Notes under the pieces: model-generated
The model's input: only the letters and a program-made list of their open reading frames with translations
Databases searched by the model: none
What the model was told of the DNA's origin: nothing
Assembly (NCBI GenBank): GCA_012514255.1
Contig: JAAZAP010000083.1
Location: 1 to 15,326, forward strand
Origin: Bacteroidales bacterium
Lineage (GTDB): Bacteria; Bacteroidota; Bacteroidia; Bacteroidales; VadinHA17
DNA length: 15,326 nt
Reading direction: 5' to 3'
Program-made: the position numbers and the translations under genes
In this document: piece after piece, positions 471 through 13,291 of the stretch
Position numbering within the stretch: position 1 is the stretch's first letter
Layout of the letters: each line of letters begins with the position of its first letter

Positions 471-543
471 CTACAATGCTTAAAGGTCTACGACCTTTTA
501 ATTGAGGGATTTCCGCTCACCGGTACAATGCTTAAAGGTCTAC
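471..543 (+). repeat. Two copies of the CTACAAT palindromic repeat (one complete, one half)
   Basis: The first copy (471-499) has the flank CTACAATGCTT, then the stem AAAGGT (482-487), loop CTACG (488-492) and ACCTTT (493-498). The second copy (523-543) repeats the flank and left arm exactly but stops after the loop, so its right arm is missing. It is a truncated relative of the elements around 1301-1597, 5168-5477, 6848 and 13061-13291. There is no T-tract, so this is not a standard terminator. Confidence 0.75.
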
Positions 544-572
544 CTATTTTCCGTGCATTGAGGTTACGGAAT

Positions 573-598
573 GACTGAAGACATCCCGGTCTTCGGTC
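573..598 (-). terminator. Possible hairpin at the end of ribE
   Basis: GACTGAAGAC (573-582) and GTCTTCGGTC (589-598) pair over ten positions with one T/G position, around a six-base loop. The hairpin touches the ribE stop codon (598-600). On the ribE strand no T-run follows, so termination is only a possibility. Confidence 0.3.
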
Positions 599-1206
599 TA
601 TTTGCCATCCTTGTCAAGTATCTGCCTGACAATCTTTGCAATGTATTTGCCAAGGATGTCAAATTCAATGTTGACAACGGTGCCGGCTTTTATCTGGTGG
701 AAGTTGGTGACTTCCCAGGTGAAGGGGATGATGGCAACCTCGAACGACCGGTCCTTCGAGTTGACAACCGTCAGGCTCACGCCGTTGACGCTGACCGAGC
801 CCTTCTCCACGGTGATATGCTCGGGCGACGTCGGTTCGTATTCAAAGGTGTAGTACCATGACCCCTCGGCCTCGCGCACGGATATACATGTGGCGGTGAG
901 ATCGACGTGCCCCTGCACCATATGTCCGTCGAGGCGCCCGTCGAGGCGCGTGCTGCGCTCCAGGTTGACCTTGTCGCCCGGCTTAAGCAACCCCAGGTTG
1001 GTCTTGTCAAGAGTCTCGCGGATGGCGGTAACAGTGTAGGTGTCCCCCTCCCTCTTCACCACCGTAAGGCAGACGCCGTTGTGCGACACGCTCTGGTCTA
1101 TCTTCAGCTCATGGGCGAATGAGCATCGCATGGTTATGTGAATGTTGTCCTTCTCCTGTTCTATGCGCACCACCGGTGCAGCTTCCTCTACTATTCCTGA
1201 AAACAT
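598..1206 (-). CDS. ribE: Riboflavin synthase, alpha subunit type
   Basis: This cytosolic enzyme catalyses the last step of riboflavin synthesis, the dismutation of two 6,7-dimethyl-8-ribityllumazine molecules into riboflavin and a pyrimidinedione. The 202-residue product has the usual length and begins with the family-typical MFSGIVEE. It contains two similar lumazine-binding barrels, with NGVCLTVV at about 43-50 in the first and NGVSLTVVN at about 141-149 in the second. The junction motif GHMVQGHVD lies at 94-102. The frame is open 22 codons further upstream (to 1272), but that extension is rejected because a TAnnTTTG promoter lies inside it and the family N-terminus starts at 1206. The gene stands alone, with repeat-rich DNA on both sides. 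Confidence 0.96.
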   Translation of the reverse strand: MFSGIVEEAAPVVRIEQEKDNIHITMRCSFAHELKIDQSVSHNGVCLTVVKREGDTYTVTAIRETLDKTNLGLLKPGDKVNLERSTRLDGRLDGHMVQGHVDLTATCISVREAEGSWYYTFEYEPTSPEHITVEKGSVSVNGVSLTVVNSKDRSFEVAIIPFTWEVTNFHQIKAGTVVNIEFDILGKYIAKIVRQILDKDGK

Positions 1207-1228
1207 GTTGTAAGATGGTTGTTTCGGG

Positions 1229-1236
1229 CAAAGATA
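1229..1236 (-). promoter_or_regulatory. Bacteroidota -7 promoter element for ribE
   Basis: On the minus strand this reads TATCTTTG, a full match to TAnnTTTG. It ends 22 bases before the ribE ATG, the same distance as for ileS. No convincing -33 TTTG is visible. Confidence 0.65.
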
Positions 1237-1300
1237 GGAAATACCATGCATACTTACCGGACATTCACCCAAAGCTGATGGCTGTTGCCGATTTCCTTCT

Positions 1301-1352
1301 TACAATTCTTTTTGGCCTACGGCCATACCCTCGTATAGGGTGGGGAATTGTA
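1301..1352. repeat. Head-to-head pair of palindromic repeats with inverted ends
   Basis: A plus-oriented copy begins TACAATTCTT at 1301 and has the stem TGGC (1313-1316), loop CTACG and GCCA (1322-1325). A minus-oriented copy follows directly: ACCCT (1327-1331), CGTAT, AGGGT (1337-1341), ending in GGGGAATTGTA at 1352. The pair forms a 52-bp unit with terminal inverted repeats TACAATTC / GAATTGTA, resembling a tiny MITE. Confidence 0.65.
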
Positions 1353-1375
1353 TAAACATGTTACCGGAAAATCCA

Positions 1376-1391
1376 GGGGTGGGTGGGTGGG
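1376..1391 (+). repeat. G-quadruplex motif
   Basis: GGGGTGGGTGGGTGGG has four G-runs joined by single T loops, the classic form of a very stable parallel quadruplex. A related G-rich stretch, sharing GGGTGGGTGGG then ACATGGGT, occurs at 13204-13223. Both lie beside palindromic repeat copies. Confidence 0.6.
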
Positions 1392-1443
1392 ACATGGGTG
1401 TACAATACAGGAAGGCGGTGGGGGATCTGGGCATCCACCCATC

Positions 1444-1597
1444 TACAATTCTTGAGGGTCTACGACCCTCCCTTCCATTGACGTTCACTGCTACAATTCT
1501 TGAGGGTCTACGGCCCTCCGTCTACAATTCTTGATGCCCTACAGGCATCCCTCGAATGTACGTCACGTGCTACAATTCTTGAGGGTCTACGACCATC
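1444..1597 (+). repeat. Cluster of four palindromic repeats abutting the ileS stop
   Basis: Four same-orientation copies start with TACAATTCTTGA at 1444, 1492, 1523 and 1571. The stems are GAGGGTC-TAC-GACCCTC (1454-1470), GAGGGTC-TAC-GGCCCTC (1502-1518, one G/T pair), GATGCC-CTACA-GGCATC (1533-1549), and a fourth with one mismatch (1581-1597). The last copy ends four bases from the ileS stop, so the ileS transcript would run through all four. Open frames here merely translate the repeat. Confidence 0.8.
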
Positions 1598-1601
1598 TGC
1601 C

Positions 1602-4600
1602 TCAGGCCTTCTCAACAATCACCCTGACCATCTGCTCCTCGATGTCCGTCTCGCGGGCGGCGCGGGCGGCAAGCTCGGCACCCGGGGCCAGCGACACCTC
1701 CAGCGCCAGCGTCTGGGATGCAATATAGTCGGCATGCTTGCGCACGGCAGCAGCAACAAACGGCAGATCCTCAATCACCACCCTGATCTTGTCGGTCACC
1801 TCAAACCCGCTCTCCTTGCGGATGTTCTGTATGCGGTTGACAAACTCGCGGGCAATACCCTCATGCAGCAGTTCCTCTGTGACAGTGATATCCAGCGCCA
1901 CCGTCAGCCTCCCCTCGTTGGCAACGAGCCATCCGGGTATATCCTCGGAGATGATCTCCACCTCGTCAGTGGTGATCCGGTGCACATTGCCGTTCGGGCC
2001 TGCCGCACCTGTCGCTCCGTCAAGCGCCAGCTCCACGAATCCATCGCGCTCGAACTGTGCTATTTCGCCCTGCGTGAGGGCCATGATAGCGACACCGGCC
2101 TCCTTCATCTGCCTGCCGAACTTCGGTCCCAGCAGCTTGAAATTGGGCTTGACGCGACGCACAAGTATGCCCGAGGTGTCATCAACATACTCCACGTCCT
2201 TGACGTTGACCTCGGCGAGTATCAGCGGCCTGACAGCCTCGAAACGCTTGCGGAACCCGGCATCAGTCACCGGCACCATGATCTTTGCCAGCGGCTGGCG
2301 TACCCTGATGTTCACCTTGCGGCGCAGGGCCAGGATCATGGACGACATCTTCTGGGCTATCTCCATCCGCTCCTCCAGGTCCTTGTCTATCAGCTTCTTA
2401 TCATAAGAAGGGAACGGCGCCAGGTGCACGGAACCCTCGGTATAATGCCCGCTGACGGCATTGAGGTCAGTAAAGATGCGGTCAGTATAGAACGGTATCA
2501 TCGGCGAGGCCAGCAGCGCCACCGTCTCCAGACAGGTATAGAGCGTCTGGTATGCCGAGAGCTTGTCCTCGTCCATGCCGCCGCCCCAGTAACGCTTGCG
2601 ATTGAGACGCACGTACCAGTTTGAGAGATTCTCGGTCACAAACTCCGATACGGCCCGTCCTGCCGGGGTGATGTCATAGTCGTCATACCGCTCACTCACC
2701 TCCTTCACCAGCGTGTTGAGCAGCGAGATGATCCAGCGGTCTATCTCGGGCCTGCGCTCCACGGGCACCTGTGGCTCACGGCCGGTGAACCCGTCAACGT
2801 TCGCGTAGAGCGCAAAGAATGAATAGGTATTATATAAGGTACCGAAGAACTTGCGCTTCACCTCCTCAATGCCTGACATGTCAAAGCGCAGGTTATCCCA
2901 CGGCTGGGCGTTGGTGAGCATGTACCAGCGCAGCGGATCGGCGCCGTGCCTGTCTATTGTTGAGAAGGGATCAACGGCGTTGCCCAGGCGCTTCGACATC
3001 TTGTTGCCGTTCTTGTCGAGTACCAATCCGTTTGAAATGATATTTTTAAACGATACCGAATCGGAGATCATCGTGGCTATGGCATGGAGCGTAAAGAACC
3101 ACCCGCGTGTCTGATCTACGCCTTCGGCGATAAAGTCGGCCGGGAACATCTCCCGGAAATTTTCCTTATTTTCAAAGGGGTAGTGTGCCTGCGCATAGGG
3201 CATCGCTCCCGAGTCGAACCAGACGTCTATCAGGTCAGGCTCGCGGTGCATGGGGCGACCGGTGGGGCTCACCAGCACGATCTCATCCACATACGGCCTG
3301 TGCAGGTCGAGCAGCGAATAGTTCTCCGCTGAGAAATCGCCCTCCACGAAATCCTGCAGCGGATTGCGGGTCATGTAACCGGCATCGATACTGCGGATTA
3401 TCTCCATCTTCAACTCTGCTACAGAGCCGATGCATATCTCCTCCTGGCGGTCTTCGGTCATCCAGATGGGCAGCGGCGTGCCCCAGTAGCGTGAGCGCGA
3501 CAGGTTCCAGTCGACCAGGTTCTCCAGCCACTTGCCGAAGCGTCCGGTGCCGGTACTCTCGGGCTTCCAGTAGATTGTGTTGTTATGTTCAATCATGCGG
3601 TCGCGCAGCGCGGTGGTGCGTATAAACCACGAGTCGAGCGGGTAGTACAGCACGGGCTTGTCGGTACGCCAGCAGTGCGGGTAGTTGTGCACCTGTTTCT
3701 CTATGCGGAACACCTTGCCCTGCTGCTTGAGTGTCACGGCAATGTCCACATCGAGGGTCTCGGCGCCCTCCTTTAGGTTGTCGTCATATTCGTTCTTGAC
3801 GTAGCGTCCCGCGAAGGGACCATAAGTGTCTGTGTTGACGCGTGTTGCCACGAAGGCCTGGTCGAGGTCCTCCATAGGCACCATCCGTCCGCGGCGATCG
3901 ACGAGCGGACCCATGAAGCCGTCGGACATCATCACCATCAGCGGAGGGATGCCGTGCTCGCGGCCGGCGCGATAGTCGTCCGCGCCGAAGGTAGGAGCTA
4001 TATGGACTATTCCCGTTCCGTCTTCTATGGTGACGAAATCGCCCGTGATGACGCGGAAAGCGCCGTCGTCAGGTTTCACCCAGTCGATAAGTTGTTCGTA
4101 GTCAATATCCTTAAGTTCGGAGCCCTTGTATTTCCCGGTAACGGTATATTCAATTTTCTTGTCTGGGGCGAAGATCACCGGCAGCAGCTCCTCTGCCAGT
4201 ATCACGGTGATGGGCTCGGAGGTGTATGGGTTCGCTGTGCGTACGGTGACGTATGTGATGTCCGGACCCACAGCCAGTGCGGTGTTTGACGGCAGCGTCC
4301 AGGGGGTGGTGGTCCATGCCATGATCTTCACGCCGTCAGTGTCGATGCCGCGGAACAGGAACTCCGACTTCTCATTGCGTACCAGGCTGAACAGTGCGAT
4401 GCAGGTGGTGTCCTTGACGTCCTTGTAGCATCCGGGCATGTTTAGCTCGTGTGAGCTGAGGCCGGTGCCGGCGGCGGGCGAAAAAGGCTGTATGGTGTAG
4501 CCCTCGTAGAGCAATCCCTTGTTATACAGCTGTTTGAGCAGCCACCATAGGGTCTCTATGTACCTGTTGTCATAGGTGATATAGGGATTGTCCATGTCTA

Positions 4601-5036
4601 TCCAGTACCCCATGTGGCGGGTCAGATCCTCCCAGGCATCGGTGAACTTCATCACATCCTTGCGGCAGGCCTCGTTGTACTCATCCACTGTAGGTTTGCC
4701 CGGCTTGCCTATGTCCTCCTTGGTTATCCCGAGCGCTTTCTCCACGCCCAGCTCCACGGGCAACCCGTGGGTGTCCCAGCCGGCCTTGCGTTTGACCTCG
4801 TAACCCTGCATGGTGCGGAAGCGGCAGATGGTGTCCTTGATGGCGCGCGACATGACATGGTGGATGCCGGGCATCCCGTTGGCTGAGGGGGGACCCTCGT
4901 AGAATACGAATTCGCCCTTGCCGTCGCGACAACGCAGCGACTTCCAGAAGGTTTCATGATCATCCCACATCTTCAGCACCTCATTGTTCACCTTCGGGAG
5001 GTCAAGGCCCTTATACTCGGGAAATTTCTTGGACAT
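1602..5036 (-). CDS. ileS: Isoleucyl-tRNA synthetase, type 2 (IleS2), with GIHH signature
   Basis: This enzyme charges tRNA-Ile with isoleucine in the cytosol and edits misactivated valine. The 1144-residue length fits the family. The class I signature normally reads HIGH, but residues 57-60 here are G-I-H-H (bases 4857-4868), in the expected context NGMP-GIHH. The second signature KMSKR is at 679-683. Editing-domain (CP1) motifs are WTTTPWTLPSNTALAV at 241-256 and GTGIVHIAPTFGADDY at 340-355; DVWFDSG is at 604-610. The C-terminal part shows no zinc-binding cysteines, and the KMSKR form and length also point to the eukaryote-like IleS2 branch, which is known for mupirocin tolerance. The ATG at 5036 fits a promoter element 22 bases upstream. 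The gene stands alone between two repeat-rich gaps. Confidence 0.97.
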   Translation of the reverse strand: MSKKFPEYKGLDLPKVNNEVLKMWDDHETFWKSLRCRDGKGEFVFYEGPPSANGMPGIHHVMSRAIKDTICRFRTMQGYEVKRKAGWDTHGLPVELGVEKALGITKEDIGKPGKPTVDEYNEACRKDVMKFTDAWEDLTRHMGYWIDMDNPYITYDNRYIETLWWLLKQLYNKGLLYEGYTIQPFSPAAGTGLSSHELNMPGCYKDVKDTTCIALFSLVRNEKSEFLFRGIDTDGVKIMAWTTTPWTLPSNTALAVGPDITYVTVRTANPYTSEPITVILAEELLPVIFAPDKKIEYTVTGKYKGSELKDIDYEQLIDWVKPDDGAFRVITGDFVTIEDGTGIVHIAPTFGADDYRAGREHGIPPLMVMMSDGFMGPLVDRRGRMVPMEDLDQAFVATRVNTDTYGPFAGRYVKNEYDDNLKEGAETLDVDIAVTLKQQGKVFRIEKQVHNYPHCWRTDKPVLYYPLDSWFIRTTALRDRMIEHNNTIYWKPESTGTGRFGKWLENLVDWNLSRSRYWGTPLPIWMTEDRQEEICIGSVAELKMEIIRSIDAGYMTRNPLQDFVEGDFSAENYSLLDLHRPYVDEIVLVSPTGRPMHREPDLIDVWFDSGAMPYAQAHYPFENKENFREMFPADFIAEGVDQTRGWFFTLHAIATMISDSVSFKNIISNGLVLDKNGNKMSKRLGNAVDPFSTIDRHGADPLRWYMLTNAQPWDNLRFDMSGIEEVKRKFFGTLYNTYSFFALYANVDGFTGREPQVPVERRPEIDRWIISLLNTLVKEVSERYDDYDITPAGRAVSEFVTENLSNWYVRLNRKRYWGGGMDEDKLSAYQTLYTCLETVALLASPMIPFYTDRIFTDLNAVSGHYTEGSVHLAPFPSYDKKLIDKDLEERMEIAQKMSSMILALRRKVNIRVRQPLAKIMVPVTDAGFRKRFEAVRPLILAEVNVKDVEYVDDTSGILVRRVKPNFKLLGPKFGRQMKEAGVAIMALTQGEIAQFERDGFVELALDGATGAAGPNGNVHRITTDEVEIISEDIPGWLVANEGRLTVALDITVTEELLHEGIAREFVNRIQNIRKESGFEVTDKIRVVIEDLPFVAAAVRKHADYIASQTLALEVSLAPGAELAARAARETDIEEQMVRVIVEKA

Positions 5037-5058
5037 AAAGCTGTTTTTTTTCAGGGTG

Positions 5059-5066
5059 CAAAGTTA
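5059..5066 (-). promoter_or_regulatory. Bacteroidota -7 promoter element for ileS
   Basis: The minus strand reads TAACTTTG, a full TAnnTTTG match, 22 bases before the ileS ATG. The short leader leaves no room for a T-box or other riboswitch. Confidence 0.65.
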
Positions 5067-5167
5067 GTAAAAGTAAGGCAATAGCCATCAGAGGGGCGAG
5101 CGTTAAGTAATGACCCGGTGGGTCATTTTAGTGAAGCAGCCAGATTGCAGGGGAGGAATTAGTGTTG

Positions 5168-5477
5168 TTCGCCGCAAGGGATCATGCATTGCAGGCTGGC
5201 CTTCTTCTGTTCAATAAACCCGGGCAGCACCACTGCAGGCCCGCATCCCCTGTTATTCGCCGCAGGGGATCAGGCATTGCAGGCTGGTCATGCTGACTGT
5301 CCCGATCCGCCGATTGGCGGATCGAGGATCCTCGGTCACGGGAACCGCGACCGGGACCGACTGGTACTGCTGACTGGAACTGCCGGCCCGCATCCCCTGT
5401 TTTTCGCCGCAGGGGATCAGGCATTGCAGGTTAGCCCGCATTCCGGGTTAATCGCCGTAGGCGATCAAGCATTGTAG
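5168..5477 (-). repeat. Four minus-oriented palindromic repeats, including a 46-bp duplication
   Basis: Copies lie at 5168-5194, 5245-5282, 5392-5429 and 5451-5477. Read on the minus strand each starts CTGCAATG or CTACAATG, followed by CTTGA-like bases and a hairpin. The last copy is closest to the consensus: ATCGC (5451-5455), loop, GCGAT (5461-5465). The middle two have a longer stem, ATCCCCTG with CAGGGGAT (5245-5252 with 5263-5270, and 5392-5399 with 5410-5417). They sit in a 46-bp direct repeat (5238-5283 and 5385-5430) that differs at one base. No gene is seen between ileS and the ATPase. Confidence 0.75.
5299..5357. repeat. Three-hairpin element, copy 1
   Basis: The outer arms GTCCCG (5299-5304) and CGGGAC (5352-5357) enclose three potential hairpins: CGATCCGCC with GGCGGATCG around GATT (5303-5324); the palindrome CGAGGATCCTCG (5323-5334); and GGTC-A-CGG with CCG-C-GACC (5334-5352, one mismatch). 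A second copy at 6909-6966 keeps the plan but changes the arms. Adjacent hairpins share a few bases, so not all stems can form at full length together. Confidence 0.6.
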
Positions 5478-5590
5478 ATAGAGTCACCCCCCCTGACCAC
5501 CCCTTTCCGGCGACCGACAGATTGCCCCAAAAAACAGTAGTTGAGGCTTTGTACAAATCCGCTTCAAATTGAAATTTGCTTTTACTAGTT

Positions 5591-5624
5591 ATATTGAGTA
5601 AATTTACTCAATATATTGAGTAAA
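5591..5624. promoter_or_regulatory. Three-half-site palindromic operator before the ATPase gene
   Basis: The half-site ATATTGAGTAAA occurs forward at 5591-5602, inverted at 5603-5614 and forward again at 5613-5624. Two perfect palindromes therefore overlap, 24 bp (5591-5614) and 22 bp (5603-5624), and the two forward half-sites lie 22 bp apart, about two helical turns. The block ends ten bases before the ATG at 5635. Its position suggests an operator controlling this gene, possibly by its own product; that is inference. Confidence 0.6.
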
Positions 5625-5634
5625 AACAGACAAT

Positions 5635-6819
5635 ATGTTTCAAAGATCTGTAATTGAGCAGCTTGAGGTACGGATGAAAGAGAAAAGAAACTTCATCCAG
5701 GTTATTACCGGTCCACGACAGGTAGGCAAAACCACCCTGGTCGGTCAGTTGCTTAACAGGCTTGATATTCCTTCACAGTATATTTCGGCTGACGGCGCGG
5801 GGCCTCAGGGTGATGTCTGGATAGAGAAACACTGGGAGGCGGCACGGCGGACACTTTTAACTGATGGTACCGGTGAGCTTATTCTGGCTATTGATGAAAT
5901 CCAGAAGCTGGAAAACTGGAGTGAGACTGTAAAGAAGCTATGGGATGAGGATACCTGGAATAAAACCCCGCTGAAACTTATTATTTCTGGTTCCTCAAGG
6001 CTTCTGCTTCAGAAGGGACTTACGGAGTCCCTCGGGGGAAGATTCGAGGTGACCTATATGGGACACTGGGCCCTGCAGGAGATGCACGAGGCATTTGGAT
6101 GGAGCCCCGAAGAGTATGTATGGTATGGCGGATATCCAGGCTCTGCATCAATAATTGAGGATGAAGAGAGGTGGAAACGTTATCTCACCGATTCTATAGT
6201 CGAGACAAGTATCTCACGCGATATCCTGATGCTCACAAGAGTAGACAAGCCGGCTCTGCTCCGCCGGCTGTTTGAGTTGGGCGTCAGGCATTCAGGTATG
6301 GAGCTCTCTTATACCAAGGTACTTGGGCAGTTGCAGGATTCCGGGAACACAACCACACTGTCTTATTACCTGACACTTCTCGGGTCCGCAGGATTACTTT
6401 CGGGGATTGAAAAGTATTCAGGCAGTATTGTCAGGCAGAGATCATCGAGCCCCAAGTTTATGGTTCATAACACTGCCCTGATGAGCTCGGCAGATACGGA
6501 ATCCTTCCGTGGTATCATGGAACATCCCGAAAAATGGGGAAGATATGTTGAATCTGCAGTGGGTGCTCACCTGCTCGACGGTTATATGAAAGGCCATTAC
6601 AAGCTCTATTACTGGAGAAAAGGCAATATGGAAGTCGATTTTGTCCTTGCCAGAGGAGATGATGTTATGGTACTTGAAGTTAAAAGCGGAAGGATGCGGA
6701 ACAAATCAGGGCTGCAAGAGTTCAGGAAAGAATATCCGAAGTCCAGGGTGATGCTGGTCGGAGGCACAGGTATACCCTGGCAGGAGTTCCTCGGTATTGA
6801 AACATCTAAAATTTACTGA
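5635..6819 (+). CDS. AAA family ATPase with C-terminal DUF4143 domain
   Basis: This is a predicted cytosolic ATPase of the large COG1373-like group; its cellular role is not established. The 394 residues show Walker A GPRQVGKTT (26-34), Walker B LILAIDEIQ (82-90) and a sensor-1-like LIISGSS (105-111). The C-terminal DUF4143 region ends in a PD-(D/E)xK-like pattern: E306, D335 and E348-V-K350 in VLEVKSG. The length is typical. The ATG at 5635 follows the palindromic operator; no ribosome binding site is visible. The gene is visibly lower in GC than ileS and is bracketed by shared repeats: an 18-bp match (5359-5376 and 6825-6842) and the two three-hairpin elements. This suggests acquisition by transfer. 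No partner gene is adjacent. Confidence 0.9.
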   Translation: MFQRSVIEQLEVRMKEKRNFIQVITGPRQVGKTTLVGQLLNRLDIPSQYISADGAGPQGDVWIEKHWEAARRTLLTDGTGELILAIDEIQKLENWSETVKKLWDEDTWNKTPLKLIISGSSRLLLQKGLTESLGGRFEVTYMGHWALQEMHEAFGWSPEEYVWYGGYPGSASIIEDEERWKRYLTDSIVETSISRDILMLTRVDKPALLRRLFELGVRHSGMELSYTKVLGQLQDSGNTTTLSYYLTLLGSAGLLSGIEKYSGSIVRQRSSSPKFMVHNTALMSSADTESFRGIMEHPEKWGRYVESAVGAHLLDGYMKGHYKLYYWRKGNMEVDFVLARGDDVMVLEVKSGRMRNKSGLQEFRKEYPKSRVMLVGGTGIPWQEFLGIETSKIY

Positions 6820-6824
6820 CTGCT

Positions 6825-6842
6825 GACTGGTACTGCTGACTG
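6825..6842 (+). repeat. 18-bp direct repeat shared with 5359-5376
   Basis: GACTGGTACTGCTGACTG is present exactly at both positions, on either side of the ATPase gene. This copy begins six bases after the stop codon and lies in a longer run of CTGACTG-like units (about 6816-6848). Confidence 0.7.
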
Positions 6843-6847
6843 CCGAC

Positions 6848-6870
6848 TATTCTTGAAGCCCTATGGGCTA
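6848..6870 (+). repeat. Palindromic repeat copy downstream of the ATPase
   Basis: The flank TATTCTTGA is followed by AGCC (6857-6860), loop CTATG and GGCT (6866-6869). It keeps the family plan with yet another complementary stem. No T-tract follows. Confidence 0.6.
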
Positions 6871-6908
6871 TTATGTATTTGAAAAACAATCAATTACTAC
6901 TGCCTATT

Positions 6909-6966
6909 GTCCCGATCCGATTTATCGGATCGAGGATCCTCGATCCAGACATGTCTGGATCGGGAC
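6909..6966. repeat. Three-hairpin element, copy 2
   Basis: Outer arms GTCCCGATC (6909-6917) and GATCGGGAC (6958-6966) enclose CGATCCGA with TCGGATCG around TTTA (6913-6932), the palindrome CGAGGATCCTCG (6931-6942), and a perfect 22-bp palindrome at 6941-6962 centred on ACATGT. Relative to copy 1 (5299-5357) the central palindrome is identical, while hairpins 1 and 3 have different but still complementary arms. Confidence 0.65.
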
Positions 6967-7017
6967 CTAATGCCTCTTGCCTGACAATATTCATGCAGAA
7001 TATATGTTTATTTATAT

Positions 7018-7025
7018 TACATTTG
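7018..7025 (+). promoter_or_regulatory. Bacteroidota -7 promoter element for the dksA-like gene
   Basis: TACATTTG matches TAnnTTTG and ends 25 bases before the ATG at 7051. No clear -33 element is seen. Confidence 0.6.
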
Positions 7026-7050
7026 CCGCATAATACTAACACCGTCAGCC

Positions 7051-7428
7051 ATGGCAGAAAAGACACGATATTCGGATGAGGAGCTGGAGGAATTCAGGCA
7101 GATCATCATGGCCAAACTCGAGAAAGCAAGGAGGGATTATGATGTGCTCAAGGCCAGCATAACCCACGAGGACAATAATGACACCATGGACACCTCGCCC
7201 ACCTTCAAGGTGCTGGAAGAGGGTGCCACCACCCTGTCAAAGGAAGAAGCCGGCCGGCTGGCTCAACGACAGCTGAAGTTCATTCAGCATCTGCAGGCAG
7301 CGCTGGTTCGCATTGAGAACAAGACTTACGGCATATGTCGTGAGACCGGTCAGCTCATAGGCAAGGAGCGTCTCCGTGCCGTTCCCCATGCCACTCTGTG
7401 CATGGAGGCCAAGCTGAAGCAGAAGTAG
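7051..7428 (+). CDS. DksA/TraR-family regulator with degenerate zinc finger
   Basis: This small protein (125 residues) belongs to the DksA/TraR family, which binds the secondary channel of RNA polymerase and tunes promoter output, often with ppGpp. Residues 8-40 and 60-90 form the predicted coiled-coil helices, with DTSP at 47-50. The C-terminal finger region reads YGICRETGQLI, then VPHATLC. Only C96 and C117 remain of the four cysteines in E. coli DksA, so zinc binding is probably lost or altered; a cysteine-poor finger is common in Bacteroidota members. The product is close to full family length. The gene is monocistronic, with its own promoter element and a strong intrinsic terminator. Whether it is a functional DksA orthologue or another family member cannot be told from sequence alone. 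Confidence 0.9.
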   Translation: MAEKTRYSDEELEEFRQIIMAKLEKARRDYDVLKASITHEDNNDTMDTSPTFKVLEEGATTLSKEEAGRLAQRQLKFIQHLQAALVRIENKTYGICRETGQLIGKERLRAVPHATLCMEAKLKQK

Positions 7429-7444
7429 TCTGAAGGTCTGAGGG
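7429..7444 (+). repeat. Two tandem octamers right after the dksA-like stop
   Basis: TCTGAAGG and TCTGAGGG stand in tandem directly after the TAG at 7426-7428. They match the octamer pattern of the longer arrays at 7498-7553 and 13294-13316. Confidence 0.45.
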
Positions 7445-7448
7445 TCTC

Positions 7449-7466
7449 ATCCGCCAGCTGGCGGAT
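7449..7466. repeat. Perfect 18-bp palindrome
   Basis: ATCCGCCAGCTGGCGGAT lies directly before the terminator hairpin of the dksA-like gene. Its GATCCGCC-type core recalls hairpin 1 of the element at 5299, and it may add a second stem to the transcript end. Confidence 0.6.
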
Positions 7467-7496
7467 AAAGGTCACGGGTAACTCGTGGCCTTTTTT
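7467..7496 (+). terminator. Rho-independent terminator of the dksA-like gene
   Basis: AAAGGTCACG (7467-7476) pairs with CGTGGCCTTT (7484-7493) with one G-U pair around a seven-base loop. Six Ts (7491-7496) follow from the end of the stem. It begins 39 bases after the stop codon and is the clearest intrinsic terminator in the window. Confidence 0.85.
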
Positions 7497-7497
7497 G

Positions 7498-7553
7498 TCT
7501 GAAGCCCTGAAGGCCCAAAGATCCAAAGCTCTGAAAGTCCAAATGTCTAAAAG
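7498..7553 (+). repeat. Degenerate octamer array, seven units
   Basis: Seven consecutive 8-bp units stay in register, from TCTGAAGC to TCTAAAAG, with the loose consensus (T/C)C(C/T)(G/A)AA(A/G)G. The register is kept although units differ from one another. A 75-codon open frame over this stretch is an artefact of the array. Confidence 0.55.
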
Positions 7554-7601
7554 CCAGAATTATCTGTATGATTTTCCGACTATTATTCGCCAGCCAGCGG
7601 A

Positions 7602-7633
7602 TCAGACTCTCCGAATCTCCGACTTTCCGACCT
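7602..7633 (-). repeat. Degenerate octamer array ending at the sugar-transferase stop codon
   Basis: Four octamers in register, TCAGACTC, TCCGAATC, TCCGACTT and TCCGACCT, run up to and overlap the first base of the sugar-transferase stop codon (7633-7635, minus strand). They would form the immediate 3' end of that transcript. Confidence 0.5.
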
Positions 7634-9150
7634 TACGCCGAGCGGGCGTTCCTGAAGAAAATATTGTACATGCTGCGGGCCAGGTAACGGATATCGGTGC
7701 CCAGCGGGTTCCTGTCCCATGAATCAAAATACCTCAGCTCCGAGTGCTGTATCGCCTCGAGGCCCGCGGGCATATCGGCATAGTACGGCGGCAACAGGCC
7801 GGGTTTGTATTGTATGCGCCGGTCACGGATCGCATCGTCATAGAGACTGAAATAGTGCCTTGAGAGAGGCCTCACGCCATACAGCCTGATATCGCCCTTA
7901 AGGATATTGACAATCATCGGCAGCTCATCAAGCCATACACGGCGCGCAAAACGCCCCCAGATCGTCACCCGGAAATCGTCCTTCATCTTACCGCCATCCT
8001 CCACCGAGTGAAGCCCGTACACATAATCCTGGATGTACTCCGAGTAGGGGTGCATAGTGCGCAGCTTGTAGACGTTGAATGTGCGGCCGTCGCGACCGAT
8101 CCTGGGGAGCGAGATGATCATCCCGTAGTTGTTCTCATTTACCGGCATTGGCGCAGAGCGACGTTCAGCCTTGATGCACAGCATGTTTCCGGCAAACTTC
8201 TCCTGTCTGATGGCGAAGCCGGCGCGACTGAGCCGTCCCAGCGCCTCAGCCCTCGAGAAAGGAGCGTTGGCGCCGCCGGTGATGAACTCCCACAGTCCCC
8301 TCGTCAGCCGCAGACGCGGAATGACACGGTTCATGATGAAATCGGGCACCATTATCAGGTACCATACCACCGGTGAATATTTATCCTTCAGCCTCTGTGC
8401 CCGCTGCTCCAGCGTCTCCACCGAGCATAGGAAGAGCCCGTCGTCGCCCAGTCGCGAGTTGACCGTGTCAAGGAACCTGTCGAGTTTCCTGATGCCGTTC
8501 ATCGGCTTGAGGTTTATGATGCATGTATAGTTGCTGTGCTCGAGGTTCTGAATGTTAAACGCTTCCCCCGTTGAAACTATCGCCAGTCGCGCCCCATCCT
8601 CCCTGCTGATCATTGACGAGAGCGCCTCGGCACGCACCCTTGAGCACCCCTCCTGCAGTCGTAACGTCAGCGCGGGATCAGGAATGATGTCGCCGGCGTC
8701 AGCGGGCTGTGAACGTGCAACCATCTCGCGCTCGGTGAGCCTGATGGTGGCGGGCGTTATCAGCGGCGCCTTGCGGAAAGCCAGGAAGAGCGTCCCGAGA
8801 ACCAGCTCAAGGAAGGTGGCGGTGAGAGCCGTGCCAAATACCACCTGCCTCGAGTAATGAAGATCACGCAGGGCGAAGAGAAGCAGGGCGGCAATGCTTG
8901 TGGCTACCAGATTGGCAATGAGAACACCCGAAAAGAGAGTCCGAAGGTTCACGATTCGGCCGCGACCAATCTTACCGCCGGCCACCGAGACGACCAGCCA
9001 GAGACAGGCCAACAGCACGAAGAAGGTGATGTGAGACGGCCCGTAAGCCTTCAGCCCCGCCGGCTTAAGCATCGACATAAGGATGTACGATACTGTAAGT
9101 ATCAATATATCAGCGCTTAGCGTGATTACACGAAATCTCCCCCTTTTCAT
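7633..9150 (-). CDS. Membrane sugar transferase with an inserted methyltransferase-like region
   Basis: The C-terminal third matches bacterial sugar transferases (polyprenyl-phosphate glycosyl-1-phosphate transferases), which start glycan repeat units on a lipid carrier at the inner membrane. Within 505 residues, four hydrophobic helices lie at about 7-27, 38-58, 72-94 and 104-125. Residues 185-330 resemble the second half of a SAM-dependent methyltransferase (RLGDDGLFL at 233-241, then FSRAEALGRLSRAGF at 298-312). The transferase core follows: IGRDGRTFNVYKLRTM (351-366), the catalytic Asp-Glu pair D408-E409 in WLDELP, and GVRPLS (425-430). The usual membrane-dipping helix with its K-R-x-x-D motif just before the core is not recognisable. 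The gene is divergent from wzi, 69 bp away, supporting a role in the surface-polysaccharide locus. The ATG at 9150 precedes the first helix. Confidence 0.85.
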   Translation of the reverse strand: MKRGRFRVITLSADILILTVSYILMSMLKPAGLKAYGPSHITFFVLLACLWLVVSVAGGKIGRGRIVNLRTLFSGVLIANLVATSIAALLLFALRDLHYSRQVVFGTALTATFLELVLGTLFLAFRKAPLITPATIRLTEREMVARSQPADAGDIIPDPALTLRLQEGCSRVRAEALSSMISREDGARLAIVSTGEAFNIQNLEHSNYTCIINLKPMNGIRKLDRFLDTVNSRLGDDGLFLCSVETLEQRAQRLKDKYSPVVWYLIMVPDFIMNRVIPRLRLTRGLWEFITGGANAPFSRAEALGRLSRAGFAIRQEKFAGNMLCIKAERRSAPMPVNENNYGMIISLPRIGRDGRTFNVYKLRTMHPYSEYIQDYVYGLHSVEDGGKMKDDFRVTIWGRFARRVWLDELPMIVNILKGDIRLYGVRPLSRHYFSLYDDAIRDRRIQYKPGLLPPYYADMPAGLEAIQHSELRYFDSWDRNPLGTDIRYLARSMYNIFFRNARSA

Positions 9151-9195
9151 ATCCTATAGTTTTTCGACAGTCTGCTGCAAATTTGCCACAAGCAT

Positions 9196-9203
9196 TATCT
9201 TTG
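9196..9203 (+). promoter_or_regulatory. Bacteroidota -7 promoter element for wzi
   Basis: TATCTTTG matches TAnnTTTG and ends 16 bases before the GTG at 9220. On the opposite strand a one-mismatch version, CAAATTTG (9178-9185, itself palindromic), could serve the divergent sugar transferase. The 69-bp gap thus probably carries two divergent promoters. Confidence 0.55.
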
Positions 9204-9219
9204 TGAAAAGCCTCAAATC

Positions 9220-11103
9220 GTGAACTATTCAACATACATAATAACTTTATCAACACTGCTGATATTGTGTTGGAGCGCACCGTCAAAGGCCCAGATGATC
9301 CCCGAGCCGGTGGGCGATGAGGCCGTTTACCTCTTCCTTGATGAGCTGGCAGCCGATGGTGTGATCACTCTCAACGGGGTGGTCAAACCCTATAGCAGGC
9401 TGATGATCAGGCAGAAACTGGAGGAGGCGGCCGGGTGGAATGCCCTGGCCGGGAAGGAAGAAGAGGCAGTGACGGGACGGTCTGGCCAGGGGATGGCAGG
9501 TAAGGTAGAGGCAGCGACGCGACGGTCTGATCGGGAGATATCTGGAGAAAGGGAGACATTGGGATGGAATGATATGACCGCTGCAGACAAAAATGAGGCA
9601 GCCGGTGGCGAAGTGGCTGAAGTGACAGGAGCCGTGGCTGCCGGCAGCCGGCAGCAGGAGCCGGCAGAGAGGAATGCCCCCCTCACCCGGAGGCAGCAGA
9701 AAGAGCTGGAGTTCTGGTTCAGCATCTATAGTCCCGGTGAGGCCGACGGCAAATTGAAGCTGTTACTGAACCCCGCCACGGCATACTACCGCGACTCGCT
9801 CTTCAGCGTCACCGTCTCGCCCATACTGGGGCTGACGGCAGGAGTCACTTACGGCACAACCTCAATCATCCCCGACGGGGGTGCACCGGACGGCGACAGG
9901 TCGCGGCAGAGCAGCATCAGCTGGAAGAACGGGGCGAAGGTTTATGGCAACTATAAGAACTGGGCCTTCTTCGCAGCATTGCAGGACAACCACCAGGATC
10001 CGATCCTCGGCAGCCCGGAATACCTCACTCGTGAGCGCGGCGGCCATATTAAGAACGGCACCGACTTTTCCGAGATGACCGGCGGCATAAGCTACATGTG
10101 GAAATGGGGCGACATCGCCTTCCTGAAGGATTCTCCGGTGTGGGGCAGCGGCTATGCCGGCACCAACATCCTCTCCGGCCGGGCGCCATCGTTCATGCAC
10201 ATCAGGCTCCACCTCAAGCCCGTCAGCTGGGGCGAGATGACCTGGATACACGGATGGCAGACCTCGATGGTGGTCGACTCCACCCGCTCATACTGGGTCA
10301 CCAACGCTTACGGCACCGTCTACCGCGAGCACTACCGCCGCAAGTACTTCGCGGCGAACATCTTCACCTTCACGCCGGTGGAACGGCTCCATGTCTCCGC
10401 CGGCAACAGCGTCATCTGGTCTGATCCGCGCATAACGCCATACTATCTCATGCCCATATTCTTCTATAAGTCGGTTGACCACGGTGTCAACTCCGGCATC
10501 AGCAACAGCAATGCGCAGATGTTCCTTGACGTGAGCTCGCACAACATACGGCACCTGCACCTATACGGCACGCTCTTCATCGACGAGCTCTCCACGGCGC
10601 GGTTCACCACCTCCGACTATAACTTCTTCTCGTGGAAGGGAGGTTTCCGCACAGGCAACTTCAGCTTCCTGCCCAACCTCTGGCTGACAACCGAGTGCAC
10701 CTTCACCTACCCGCTCACCTTCCAGCATAACGTGCCTGTCATCACCTTTGAGAACCAGGGTTATAATATGGGTCACTGGCTGCGCGACAACAGCAGGAGC
10801 TGGTACTTTGCGCTCGACTGGCGGCCGGTGCGCGCCGCCGGTGTACAACTGTGGCATGAGCGCTCAGAGCGGGGCCCCGACTACCAGAGCATCGGCGGCA
10901 GCAGGATCGGGCTGCCCTACATGGAAACCATCGAGTGGAGCAACATCGCCACCGGGGTCGATATCAGTTACCTGATCACCGGCGGGGTGCAGGCACGGGC
11001 CTCCTTCGCCCTGCGCAATGTTACCGGCACCGAAGAGTGGTACCCCTCATACCTTTCCGGCAAAACCACCACCCTCAGCGGCGGAGTGGTGTGGGGATTT
11101 TAA
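9220..11103 (+). CDS. wzi: Wzi-family capsule assembly protein, outer-membrane beta-barrel
   Basis: Wzi-type proteins sit in the outer membrane and help hold or assemble capsular polysaccharide at the surface. The 627-residue product starts with a signal peptide (about 1-25, cleavage near SKA-Q). A conserved-looking N-terminal part follows (VGDEAVYLFLDELAADG at 31-47). From about residue 190 the chain is rich in alternating aromatic and polar strands typical of a barrel, ending in the BAM-type terminal Phe of VVWGF. Residues about 73-153 form a Glu/Ala/Gly-rich insertion with 15-residue repeats that most homologues probably lack, which would explain the extra length. The start is GTG; the next in-frame ATG lies after the signal peptide, so GTG is strongly preferred. 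A last-codons homologue recurs at 13389-13419. Confidence 0.88.
   Translation: MNYSTYIITLSTLLILCWSAPSKAQMIPEPVGDEAVYLFLDELAADGVITLNGVVKPYSRLMIRQKLEEAAGWNALAGKEEEAVTGRSGQGMAGKVEAATRRSDREISGERETLGWNDMTAADKNEAAGGEVAEVTGAVAAGSRQQEPAERNAPLTRRQQKELEFWFSIYSPGEADGKLKLLLNPATAYYRDSLFSVTVSPILGLTAGVTYGTTSIIPDGGAPDGDRSRQSSISWKNGAKVYGNYKNWAFFAALQDNHQDPILGSPEYLTRERGGHIKNGTDFSEMTGGISYMWKWGDIAFLKDSPVWGSGYAGTNILSGRAPSFMHIRLHLKPVSWGEMTWIHGWQTSMVVDSTRSYWVTNAYGTVYREHYRRKYFAANIFTFTPVERLHVSAGNSVIWSDPRITPYYLMPIFFYKSVDHGVNSGISNSNAQMFLDVSSHNIRHLHLYGTLFIDELSTARFTTSDYNFFSWKGGFRTGNFSFLPNLWLTTECTFTYPLTFQHNVPVITFENQGYNMGHWLRDNSRSWYFALDWRPVRAAGVQLWHERSERGPDYQSIGGSRIGLPYMETIEWSNIATGVDISYLITGGVQARASFALRNVTGTEEWYPSYLSGKTTTLSGGVVWGF
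9463..9552 (+). repeat. Two 45-bp degenerate tandem repeats inside wzi
   Basis: Units starting GAGGCAG at 9463 and 9508 share GAGGCAG(T/C)GACG(G/C)GACGGTCTG and then diverge. They encode two 15-residue units, EAVTGRSGQGMAGKV and EAATRRSDREISGER, within the low-complexity insertion. The period is a multiple of three, so copy-number change would keep the frame. Confidence 0.55.
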
Positions 11104-11270
11104 ATGCTCCCAAGGTCATACTTATTGGCTTCCATGATGTTTTATGTAAATCTGCATTCTAAATGCCAATTTGCATAAAGGGAGATATTTGTTTCCTGCT
11201 AAAGGTATTAAATAAGAGGAGGAGTAATAAAAGTCATGAAGCAGATAAATACTTTTATAATAATAACTAC

Positions 11271-11300
11271 ATTTTACAAAAATGCTTATATTTGTAAAAT
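11271..11300 (+). promoter_or_regulatory. hipBA operator overlapping its -7 promoter element
   Basis: Perfect ten-base arms, ATTTTACAAA (11271-11280) and TTTGTAAAAT (11291-11300), are separated by ten bases, so the arm centres are 20 bp apart, about two helical turns. A -7 element TATATTTG (11287-11294) overlaps the right arm and lies 18 bases before the hipB ATG. A HipB dimer bound here would cover the promoter, consistent with known autorepression of hipBA modules. Confidence 0.7.
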
Positions 11301-11312
11301 AGAGTTATTGTT

Positions 11313-11675
11313 ATGAAGACAAGAAACAACATACTTTTGCCACGGGCACAGAAGCCGCTGACGATCCTTGGTGAGAACATCCGGCTTGCGAGGCTGAGAC
11401 GAAGATACAGCATGGAACAGGTCGCTGAAAGGGCTGATATCAGCAGGCCAACATTGCACTCCATTGAAAGAGGTAACTCCAATGTTACAATTGGTGCGTA
11501 TGTCAAGGTTCTCGCCGTGCTGGGACTTGAGCAGGATATTGTCGCAGTGGCAAAAGATGATATACTCGGTCGGAAGATTCAGGACGCCGGGTTGATTATA
11601 AAAGAAAGGGCTCCCAAAATCAACGTCAGGACAAAAACACAATCGAGCAAGCCCGGTATTGAGACTACTGATTAA
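11313..11675 (+). CDS. hipB: HipB-type antitoxin, XRE-family helix-turn-helix protein
   Basis: This DNA-binding antitoxin neutralises the downstream HipA kinase and represses the operon. The 120-residue protein has a Cro/C1-type helix-turn-helix at about 19-72 (LGENIRLARLRRRYSMEQVA, then SRPTLHSIERG), the hallmark of HipB. A short basic tail rich in Lys, Ser and Thr (about 97-120) follows; E. coli HipB also has a flexible tail, used in its turnover. The protein is somewhat longer than E. coli HipB (88 residues). The start at 11313 lies just downstream of the palindromic operator. The stop is seven bases before the hipA ATG, so the two are translated as one operon. GC content is visibly below that of wzi. 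Confidence 0.92.
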   Translation: MKTRNNILLPRAQKPLTILGENIRLARLRRRYSMEQVAERADISRPTLHSIERGNSNVTIGAYVKVLAVLGLEQDIVAVAKDDILGRKIQDAGLIIKERAPKINVRTKTQSSKPGIETTD

Positions 11676-11682
11676 CACGACG

Positions 11683-12957
11683 ATGGCAGCAAGAAATAAC
11701 CTCAGGAAAATCTATGTTTACGCTCATTGGGAAGATTTACAGGAGCCTGTAATGATGGGTGAACTCAGGGCTGAGTTAGTAAGAGGAAAGGAAATCTTTT
11801 CATTCAGTTACAATAATGAATGGCTTAAAACGAATTTCTCGCAAATCCTTGACCCTCATTTGTTCTTGTCTTCTGGCGCTCAATATACCAGTGATGAAAG
11901 ACAAAATTTTGGCATTTTTCTGGACTCCTCTCCTGACCGGTGGGGACGAACGCTGATGAAAAGACGTGAGGCGGCTCTGGCCAGATCCGAAGAACGTCCC
12001 GAAGTGACACTCAGGGAATCTGATTATCTCCTCGGTGTTTTTGATAGCCACAGGATGGGAGCACTCAGGTTCAAGGAGGATCCTGAAGGTCCTTTCATGA
12101 ATAACAATAAGGAGTATTCATCTCCTCCCTGGACCTCACTGAAGGAACTGGAGCAGGTCAGCCTCCGGCTTGAGGAAGAGGATGCATTTGATGATCCAAG
12201 GTATATAAAATGGCTTACCATGCTGGTCAATCCCGGATCTTCGCTTGGCGGAGCGAGACCAAAGGCTAGTGTTCTGGATGATTCAAAAAGACTCTGGATA
12301 GCAAAATTTCCAAGCAGATCAGATACAAAGGATATCGGGGGCTGGGAAATGGTGGCAAATGGACTTGCCAGATCATCCGGTATTAATGTGGCCCAATCAA
12401 TGGTCAGAAAGTTTTCTGGTCGTTACCATACCTTTCTGGCAAAGAGATTTGACAGGACTGCGGCCGGAGAACGCATCCATTTTGCCTCCGCAATGACTAT
12501 GCTTGGACACCAGGACGGTGACAGCTATCGCGAAGGAGCAAGTTACCTGGAGATTGTCGATTTTATTGTCACCGGGGGAGCCAGGATTGAGAGTGACCTT
12601 CAGGAGCTTTGGACCAGGATCATTTTCAATATCATGATTGCCAACACAGATGATCATCTCAGGAATCATGGATTCCTGATGACGAAAAAGGGATGGATTC
12701 TGTCACCTGCCTTTGATCTTAATCCTGATGAAAACGGAACGGGCCTCTCACTCAACATCAGTCTTACTGATAATGCCATGGATCCGGATCTAGCACTTGA
12801 GGTCATTGAATTTTTCAGAATGGACCGGGATAGTGGTGTCAGGATAATTAAACGCGTAAAAGAATCAGTCAGCCGTTGGCGAAGGGTAGCCGAATGGTAT
12901 CAATTGCCCAGGTCAGAGCAGGAGCGAATGGCGAAAGTGTTCGACAGGTTCATATGA
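11683..12957 (+). CDS. hipA: HipA-type serine/threonine kinase toxin
   Basis: HipA kinases phosphorylate cytosolic targets (glutamyl-tRNA synthetase in E. coli), stop growth and promote persistence; this protein's target is unknown. The 424-residue, full-length chain has the N-terminal subdomain (about 5-125, with SSPDRWG at 82-88). The phosphorylatable glycine-rich loop is SSLGGARPKAS (186-196). The catalytic loop NTDDHLRN has D323 and N328, and the metal-binding FDL includes D345. By alignment these correspond to D309, N314 and D332 of E. coli HipA, so the kinase looks intact. A TTG 24 bases upstream would overlap hipB; the ATG at 11683 is preferred. Low GC and flanking wzi-end copies suggest the pair was acquired as a unit. 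Confidence 0.93.
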   Translation: MAARNNLRKIYVYAHWEDLQEPVMMGELRAELVRGKEIFSFSYNNEWLKTNFSQILDPHLFLSSGAQYTSDERQNFGIFLDSSPDRWGRTLMKRREAALARSEERPEVTLRESDYLLGVFDSHRMGALRFKEDPEGPFMNNNKEYSSPPWTSLKELEQVSLRLEEEDAFDDPRYIKWLTMLVNPGSSLGGARPKASVLDDSKRLWIAKFPSRSDTKDIGGWEMVANGLARSSGINVAQSMVRKFSGRYHTFLAKRFDRTAAGERIHFASAMTMLGHQDGDSYREGASYLEIVDFIVTGGARIESDLQELWTRIIFNIMIANTDDHLRNHGFLMTKKGWILSPAFDLNPDENGTGLSLNISLTDNAMDPDLALEVIEFFRMDRDSGVRIIKRVKESVSRWRRVAEWYQLPRSEQERMAKVFDRFI

Positions 12958-13060
12958 GTTTATAATTAACCTGCTGACAGTTAGGCTGCGCTCCCCTGGT
13001 GGGATTGGGCCGGCTGAATATAGGATAACGGCGGCGTGGTATTTTGGGTATCCCTCCTGT

Positions 13061-13291
13061 TATAATTCCTGGAGGTCTATGACCTCCCCCTGCCATAAAA
13101 TGATTTGGCCTACGACAAATGATATGGGTGTAGTCCTTAAAAAAATATTGACAGGGATCAACATGCTATACAATGCCTGTAGGGCATTAAGAATTGTAGT
13201 GGAGGGTGGGTGGGGACATGGGTTCACAATTCTGTATGGCCAAAATCGGCAATCAACAATCGACAATCGACAATTCTTGATGGTCTGCGGC
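13061..13291. repeat. Palindromic repeat cluster downstream of hipA
   Basis: A plus copy at 13061-13087 has the stem GGAGGTC-TAT-GACCTCC. A degenerate hairpin at 13103-13120 has ATTTG and CAAAT around a loop containing CCTACG. A minus copy at 13171-13198 has AATGCC (13172-13177), loop, GGCATT (13183-13188) and ends in GAATTGTA. A decayed plus copy starts ACAATTCTTGATGGTC near 13270. A second G-rich stretch, GGGTGGGTGGGG then ACATGGG, lies at 13204-13222. No gene is seen between the hipA stop and the wzi relic. Confidence 0.7.
13244..13271 (+). repeat. Four tandem heptamers
   Basis: Units AATCGGC, AATCAAC, AATCGAC and AATCGAC follow each other in a seven-base register, leading into a decayed palindromic repeat copy. 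Confidence 0.55.

Follow-up and report, generated by a model that had tools for sequence, protein, structure and literature searches.

The intergenic regions of a Bacteroidales contig (JAAZAP010000083.1), analysed here over a stretch of 15,326 nucleotides (nt) that is called the window below, contain a family of short hairpin repeats with a fixed CTAC(G/A) loop and covarying stems. These repeats are likely to be non-autonomous single-strand-DNA elements resembling repetitive extragenic palindromes (REPs), namely the recognition hairpins of a Y1 (HUH) transposase, TnpA, with the signature of subclass 1.2, which have been scattered and tandemly multiplied between genes. The family is real, covarying and restricted in its occurrence; it behaves in the manner of REPs, from which its foot and the class of its transposase set it apart. 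Because, in related bacteria, the hairpins surround a transposase whose type has been described as lacking repeats of this kind, this orphan TnpA class has probably found its DNA partner. REPs and their RAYT transposases are the best-known case of a bacterial transposase kept in partnership with repeats, and the experiments on them come from Proteobacteria. If the reading proposed here is true, a second partnership, with a different TnpA class and recognition code, would suggest more than one origin. Moreover, an orphan class of HUH enzymes would gain a testable substrate, and the repeat arrays found at contig ends in some Bacteroidales metagenome-assembled genomes (MAGs) would become easier to explain. 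Literature linking subclass 1.2 to REPs or printing this repeat was not found, and the 12-mers CTACAATTCTTG and CAAGAATTGTAG gave an unrelated match only, in searches that left most subscription journals outside.

The original prediction for this DNA described stems that differ from copy to copy yet stay complementary, and took this as selection on the fold. For the fold test, copies were picked by their 5' flank alone and not by the hairpin (distinct 85-nt contexts starting with TACAAT[GT]C[TC]T), which gave 121 copies from other genomes (external copies) and 10 from the window. On average, 5.33 of 6 Watson-Crick pairs were formed in the external copies, compared with 3.34 when partners were shuffled among them (maximum 3.61 in 1000 shuffles) and 0.93-1.52 in shifted registers, and 8 of the 10 window copies had 5 or 6 pairs. 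Covariation was measured on 87 of 91 distinct 28-mers, the 4 without a hairpin being left out. In this set 92.1% of the stem cells were paired versus 62.3% after shuffling, the covariation score was 0.712 versus 0.204 (0 of 500 shuffles as high), and double-sided changes occurred at 6/6 stem pairs, in 133 cells versus 40.7 in shuffles. The complementarity of the stems therefore clearly exceeds that of shuffled controls, and the predicted selection on the fold is supported in the sense that the fold may be kept either by selection or by the copying process. Among the 103 external copies with 5-6 pairs, 49 stem/loop combinations were found, and the loop was nearly fixed, as predicted (CTACG in 83, CTACA in 13). 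The stem comprises 4-6 bp and is preceded on its 5' side by a CTAC(AAT) tag, the CTAC being separated from the stem by about 7-9 nt. Same-strand neighbours within 160 nt of each other sit 48-53 nt apart in 42 of 63 cases. Canonical REPs have GT[AG]G 0-2 nt 5' of the hairpin. The original prediction was reminded of this GTAG foot, but it was present at 0/103 of the well-paired external copies on the top strand and 5/103 on the bottom strand, its place being taken by the CTAC(AAT) tag. Therefore, the repeats are considered REP-like and not REPs proper.

The predicted placement outside genes was confirmed for 78 copies in 18 stretches (17 loci of relatives and the window). Only 9 of these copies lay in open reading frames (ORFs) of at least 150 aa, all in a single ORF of locus L028 that overlies the array itself, versus 4536 of 5400 random positions. 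The clusters were found between tandem (13), convergent (4) and divergent (1) genes, the gene pairs themselves numbering 63, 10 and 10; with so few clusters no striking bias is visible. A T run (TTTT within 10 nt) follows the hairpin at only 15/103 copies on the top strand and 0/103 on the bottom strand, and ordinary intrinsic terminators were rejected on this ground. A broader alternative sees the hairpins as RNA or DNA elements of the host (terminators, stabilisers of mRNA 3' ends, protein-binding sites) that are selected for their fold, the link with tnpA being secondary, for example through insertion at hairpins. The intergenic placement, the strong stems and one copy directly behind ileS are in line with such elements, and REPs have been co-opted in such roles according to the available part of PMC6006769. 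The occurrence in both orientations, the scarcity of T runs, the unremarkable neighbour-gene classes, and also the restricted occurrence, the tandem arrays and the symmetry around tnpA described below argue against it, and this explanation is regarded as unlikely.

The distribution of the family was determined with one pattern scan of a collection of genome contigs, in which TACAATKCTTGANNNNCTACRNNNNTC gave 32 stretches, most of them in three Bacteroidetes MAGs: AS06rmzACSIP_603 (G001), UBA4070 (G002) and QR_Bin.26 (G003). A looser pattern had 55, 13 and 6 exact matches in these three, respectively, and 1 in each of two other genomes; read backwards, it had 0. Stretches from other phyla or alone in their genome, with 1 match each (L002, L008, L009, L012, L023), were excluded before copies were counted, being probably coding sequence or chance matches, as were L035, L036 and L040, located in two of these genomes; L001, a contig of a 'Bacillota' MAG with two good copies, was kept. 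Copies were then scored with a covariance model, R1, whose training set of 87 copies came entirely from other genomes and left the window out; the E-values of the model come from a shortened calibration. R1 recovered at least 125 copies in G001, 92 in G002 and 71 in G059, three Bacteroidales MAGs, so that the family is abundant in relatives' genomes, as well as at least 20 in G003 and 18 in G049. Among the candidates scored, no more than 150 in any genome, in 11 further genomes, G057 had at least 3 copies, G024 and G036 at least 1 each, and 8 had none. Judged by ileS, the genomes nearest to the window are G049 (93% identical), G003 (92%, a split match), G059 (91%, positions 1-1079) and G002 (90%); the ileS pieces of G061 are 76-93% identical to that of the window.

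A Y1_Tnp profile search of five genomes with pattern matches gave matches in 3. In G002 the match is a 163-aa tnpA gene (locus L033, 1486-1977), the product of which has the motifs DHIH, WQ and YIRDQDKHH. Over 40 TnpA rows, Y---Q--HH and W[QE] were present in 40/40 and [DN]H[IVL]H in 37/40, with NH or DHLH in place of DHIH in some; the class 2 signature Y---NP was not found in these rows. TnpA thus carries the IS200-type subclass 1.2 signature, a class assigned by motif alone. The structure predicted for P0001, a 96% relative of the G002 TnpA (pLDDT 84, pTM 0.73), matched ISDra2 TnpA (E 4e-8), IS608 TnpA (3.1e-7) and Escherichia coli RAYT (5.7e-5) with a TM of about 0.56, and the predicted fold resembles that of an IS200/IS605 TnpA with HUH and one catalytic Tyr. 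The score against the NCBIfam IS200 model was 50.3, under the cut-off of 55. The automated names of close homologues, which are labels and not tests, read 'REP element-mobilizing transposase RayT' in some cases and 'IS200/IS605 family transposase' in others. A homologue of the G002 TnpA (E <= 0.001) is present in 77 of the 117 genomes of the G002 family, as a single match in each of G002, G049 and G032 and as up to 11 elsewhere. Of 15 pairs formed by 6 tnpA loci, dS was unsaturated in 3, and dN/dS in these was 0.094 (G002/G049), 0.216 and 0.072. Another Y1 protein was noted in G001 (L034) and G049 (L127) as open frames of 255 aa; the G001 protein, the only one scored, reached 79.1 bits where the NCBIfam cut-off for REP_Tyr_transpos is 80.

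The tnpA gene of G002 has repeat copies on both sides, with 116-nt inverted repeats that are 88% identical. The same longer unit can be recognised in the window, where positions 1347-1470 align over 124 nt with the right flank of the G002 gene (L033 2043-2166) at 77% identity and positions 1345-1470 align, in inverted orientation, with its left flank (L033 781-656) at 76%. To count such hairpins, 40 tnpA loci were scanned within 500 nt for a CTAC(G/A) loop closed by at least 4 perfect pairs. This loop-specific test was positive on one or both sides of 26/40 loci, with 99 hairpins (76 facing outward, 23 inward) versus 0.44 expected from dinucleotide shuffles, an expectation that leaves out L188 with its right flank of 7 nt; control genes of the same family gave 3/15 loci and 8 hairpins. 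Among the loci at least 50% identical to the G002 tnpA, 15/16 were positive, and the sixteenth, L067, has its hairpins at a distance of over 800 nt. All members of a clade of 17 loci in the tnpA tree (support 97/96) are positive, L067 being counted by those distant hairpins, and the hairpin label requires 5 changes versus 12.3 when shuffled; the labels are partly a matter of judgement, as L067 was entered as 'with' beyond 500 nt, and L081 and L084 as 'without' in spite of 3 and 1 hairpins counted; all remaining labels agree with the loop-specific test. In G044, arrays of hairpins on both sides of tnpA are spaced by 92 nt (10 copies in register) and 118 nt (6). A generic hairpin test was positive at 33/40 loci (151 hairpins versus 11.0 expected), but also at 6/16 control loci (32 versus 7.6), and because of this poor specificity the loop-specific test is relied upon. 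Judged by eye, many loci negative for CTAC(G/A) loops contain other hairpins, often about 50 nt apart, with loops such as TCT, TCC or TTC, some of them after a CTACA-like tag. Inverted repeats across tnpA in loci other than that of the G018 element described below consisted of hairpin or tag units wherever they were found (by eye, up to 3 matches per locus, L188 being too short). The hairpin of the G048 type showed no sign of a large dispersed family in five genomes searched: G048 had 4 matches, none of them outside the tnpA contig, G040 had 1, next to its tnpA, G070 had 3, and the two others had 0.

The original prediction had proposed that a Y1/RAYT gene (PF01797) flanked by copies should be looked for. 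A flanked Y1 gene was indeed found, in G002; it is not a RAYT proper, as it has Y---Q--HH and not Y---NP. The repeats could instead belong to a class 2 RAYT missing from the assembled contigs, the subclass 1.2 TnpA being a bystander that landed among them. The 255-aa Y1 protein of G001 and G049, with its near-threshold score in G001, may be cited for this view, as may the frequent landing of transposons in repeats; moreover, two subclasses of class 2, 2.4 and 2.6, are found in Bacteroidetes, the latter with atypical structures, as stated in the part of PMC6006769 available. However, the foot by which class 2 repeats are recognised is almost absent here, the 5'-flank scan turned up no repeat copy at the G001 locus of the 255-aa protein (L034), and the hairpins flank 26/40 loci of the subclass 1.2 type, clustered on the tnpA tree. 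A hidden RAYT is therefore held to be very unlikely.

The genomic context of tnpA gives further information on the system. In G002 and G049 the gene lies between the same flanking genes, with the cassette inverted in G049, and in G032 it lies beside the same sensor gene, so that one flank is common; in these genomes it seems to be maintained in the manner of a RAYT gene. In G003 (L165), compared with the loci L134/L135 of G002 and G049, tnpA is gone and a neighbouring segment of about 410 nt is inverted. Both rearrangements would fit local inversions driven by the inverted repeats. Elements in G042 and G018 contain four hairpins in two outward-facing pairs, with stems mostly fixed per position, and enclose either tnpA sequence or merely about 160-250 bp; two copies without tnpA retain a stretch that by eye resembles a tnpA end. 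With respect to the empty sites that the original prediction proposed to look for, one occupied/empty pair was obtained in a related lineage: the G018 tnpA element is absent from G028, where the flanks are contiguous (96% and 79% identical), although its ends can be placed only to within a few tens of bases and an AT-rich overlap of about 20 nt is seen at the junction. For the window's own copies around ileS, the corresponding stretches of neighbouring genomes differ, contain N gaps or have another gene as neighbour. From these arrangements of sequence we infer that the repeats may be mobilised by TnpA.

Several observations weigh against the repeats being the recognition hairpins of this TnpA. 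Within 500 nt, 14/40 tnpA loci have no CTAC(G/A) hairpin. G061, whose ileS pieces reach 92-93% identity with the ileS of the window, has no R1 match and one signature match. Across 117 genomes, the association between repeat and tnpA is a modest one: 7/17 clade genomes versus 11/100 others had at least 5 net signature copies (p 0.005, kinship ignored), two of these 11, G062 and G104, having a hairpin-flanked tnpA of the second clade. The two MAGs richest in repeats, G001 and G059, gave no tnpA of this type, and the same holds for G003, G057, G024 and G055. In these six, PF01797 was represented by the other Y1 type in G001 and by a contig-edge fragment in G057, with none in the remaining four; G001, which lacks a proper ileS (a weak 22% match only), is incomplete. 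The orthologous locus has been assembled in both G003 and G057; it lacks tnpA, and in G003 repeats persist there. The tnpA copies of G042 have in-frame stops and that of G018 has a TGA, and thus these elements may be dead. Finally, a 34-nt terminal inverted repeat (TIR) that is not a hairpin, 85% identical, lies outside the hairpins of the G018 element, which could thus be moved by another transposase. An unlinked DDE transposase acting on such TIR-bounded elements, with tnpA and hairpins as cargo, is suggested in G018 both by this TIR and by the AT-rich junction overlap of about 20 nt. A TIR of this kind was not seen across tnpA in the other loci tested, where any inverted repeats found are hairpin or tag units and the hairpins are the common element, and movement by a DDE transposase is regarded as decidedly unlikely. 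The absence of tnpA from repeat-rich MAGs and the broken tnpA of G042, together with the regular 48-53 nt arrays and the decayed window copies, could also mean that the units are passive tandem and dispersed duplications of old debris, produced by slippage and recombination and no longer, perhaps never, moved by TnpA. Passive duplication does not sit well with the covariation and the 49 stem/loop combinations, the dispersal of copies in both orientations, the low G002/G049 dN/dS and the occupied/empty pair, and it is considered highly improbable.

In the window, R1 identified 8 strong copies (37-46 bits, E <= 2.2e-6), 3 weak and 4 marginal ones; it gave 21 matches in all at E <= 10, and the 6 beyond these 15 have E > 2. 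The strong copies correspond to predicted sites 471, 1301, 1444, 1492, 1523 and 1571 on the plus strand and 5451 and 13171 on the minus strand. They lie at 471..498 (stem AAAGGT/ACCTTT, loop CTACG; 40.9 bits), 1300..1327 (38.3 bits), 1443..1470 (GAGGGT/ACCCTC; 43.5 bits), 1491..1518 (39.9 bits), 1522..1549 (GATGCC/GGCATC, loop CTACA; 45.6 bits), 1570..1597 (just beyond the ileS 3' end; 37.2 bits), 5450..5477 (minus strand, GATCGC/GCGATT with 5/6 pairs; 39.7 bits) and 13172..13199 (minus strand; 43.7 bits). The last has a CTACAAT-like tag on both sides, with the 'double foot' look TACAATTCTTAATGCCCTACAGGCATTGTA. The copy at 1300 is the first half of an inward-facing pair with the bounds TACAATTC...GAATTGTA, the degenerate second half of which is the marginal copy at 1326..1353 (site 1327, minus strand; 13.8 bits, E 0.11). 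The copy at 1443 is contained in the longer unit of about 124 nt at 1347..1470 (plus strand) that aligns with the G002 tnpA flanks. Weak copies occur on the plus strand at 523..547 (site 523; 5' flank kept, stem decayed to 3/6 pairs; 22.9 bits), 13060..13087 (site 13061; GGAGGT/ACCTCC, loop CTATG; 20.0 bits) and 6849..6871 (site 6848; truncated to model positions 6-28, loop CTATG; 17.9 bits). The stretch 13017..13084 (plus strand) is part of the longer tnpA-bracketing unit, 81% identical over 68 nt to L033 2100-2163. The other marginal matches are two degenerate copies on the minus strand, 5244..5282 (site 5245) and 5391..5429 (site 5392), which are 96% alike over 52 nt (12.2 bits and E 0.22 each), and one at 13270..13295 (plus strand; 12.5 bits, E 0.19) that was absent from the earlier list. 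Site 5168 had no R1 match at E <= 10. With 8 clean and about 7 decayed copies, the statement that about 15 copies share the flank was generous. An Rfam search of the window gave 0 matches at gathering score, in agreement with the remark that no named family is known.

The window is a Bacteroidales-type contig with a riboflavin synthase-like gene, ileS (minus-strand ORF, 1602-5036), an AAA ATPase, a HipA-like and a UpxY/NusG-like gene, all named by eye. The AAA ATPase gene (5635-6819, DUF4143-like by eye) separates ileS from a DksA/TraR-like gene. In G059 (L091) ileS and the DksA-like gene seem, by eye, to be direct neighbours with no ATPase gene between them. A small helix-turn-helix (HTH) gene followed by the HipA-like gene (11313-12957) is, from translation, a possible toxin-antitoxin-type pair. 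Other repeats were also noted. A second simple repeat of the CTGACTGGTACTGCTGACTGCC type occurs beside hairpin copies (window 5278-5299, 5355-5376 and 6821-6842; G001 L015 and L019), other dispersed intergenic palindromes, recognised by eye, occur at 5300-5330, 6905-6965 and 7450-7470 (GATCCGCC..GGCGGATC, CCCGATCC..GGATCGGG), and short tandem units of AAAGGTCT, CAGACCTT or AAAGGTTA follow directly on a hairpin copy or on the end of a gene (window 13289-13318; L017; L089).

If the repeats are recognition hairpins of the subclass 1.2-type TnpA, this enzyme, probably as a dimer on two hairpins, would use the fixed loop to bind the folded strand during replication, and would cut and rejoin it near the CTAC tag. 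Hairpin units would thereby be copied into new intergenic sites, and their stems could drift, yet would have to stay complementary. The binding, the cutting and the role of the tag are modelled on REPs, for which the loop and the tetranucleotide are recognition parts in the portion of PMC8266576 available. It is also somewhat favoured that an IS200-type lineage (subclass 1.2) became a REP-like system in Bacteroidota independently of RAYTs. In such a system TnpA would be single-copy and maintained in some lineages and would possess its own dispersed hairpins, a hairpin pair about 50 nt apart would be the recognition unit, the code would be the fixed loop and the CTAC tag in place of the GTAG foot, and different sublineages of tnpA appear to possess their own loops and stems.

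Comparison with known systems places the family close to several of them. Like IS200/IS605 elements (IS608, ISDra2; TnpA subclass 1.1), it has the TnpA fold, the HUH/Y1 motifs and hairpins near the ends of the tnpA element. IS200/IS605 elements have a single hairpin per end and are not mirror-symmetric. In contrast, the hairpins described here are doubled and mirror-symmetric, with outward doublets on both sides in G018/G042, and copies without tnpA exist. In G042 and G018 these tnpA-less copies have the same four hairpins as the tnpA-bearing ones, whose tnpA has in-frame stops; they may be miniature inverted-repeat transposable elements of a tnpA element. With REP/REPIN and RAYT (class 2 TnpAREP), as far as the available parts of PMC6006769, PMC2817692 and PMC8266576 describe them, the family has in common many short intergenic palindromes, dimers, tandem arrays, covarying stems, inverted copies around a Y1 gene, a conserved tnpA locus in some relatives and repeats that stay when the gene is lost. 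It differs from them in having no GT[AG]G foot but a CTAC(AAT) tag 7-9 nt from the stem, a fixed CTACG/A loop, a spacing of about 50 nt and an IS200-like transposase with Y---Q--HH and not Y---NP. TnpAREP subclass 2.6 is likewise a Bacteroidetes Y1 gene with non-canonical hairpins recurring in the genome; its NH[LIV]H, YIH[QN]NP and 179 aa in the accessible part of PMC6006769 differ from DHIH, Y---Q--HH and 163 aa. TIRYTs and their TIR repeats also combine a Y1 gene with inverted flanks repeated in the genome (PMC3733652, in the part available), and the G018 element has a TIR; TIRYTs belong mainly to subclass 2.1, with HTH domains (PMC6006769) and GGGGWSAS motifs, and were compared here by Y1 motifs only. 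The closest agreement of the transposase is with TnpA(Y1) subclass 1.2, which the available part of Quentin et al. (2018, PMC6006769) describes as a Bacteroidetes group of about 150 aa with DH[IV]H, WQ and Y---Q--HH; the DHIH, WQ and YIRDQDKHH of the 163-aa G002 TnpA correspond to it by motif comparison. In the same part of that source, subclass 1.2 is of low copy number and generally without IS200-type end structures, and its Table 1 entry for REP is 'no', whereas CTAC(G/A) hairpins were found here at 26/40 loci. Therefore, the published description is read as needing correction, and subclass 1.2 most likely does have REP-like partners.

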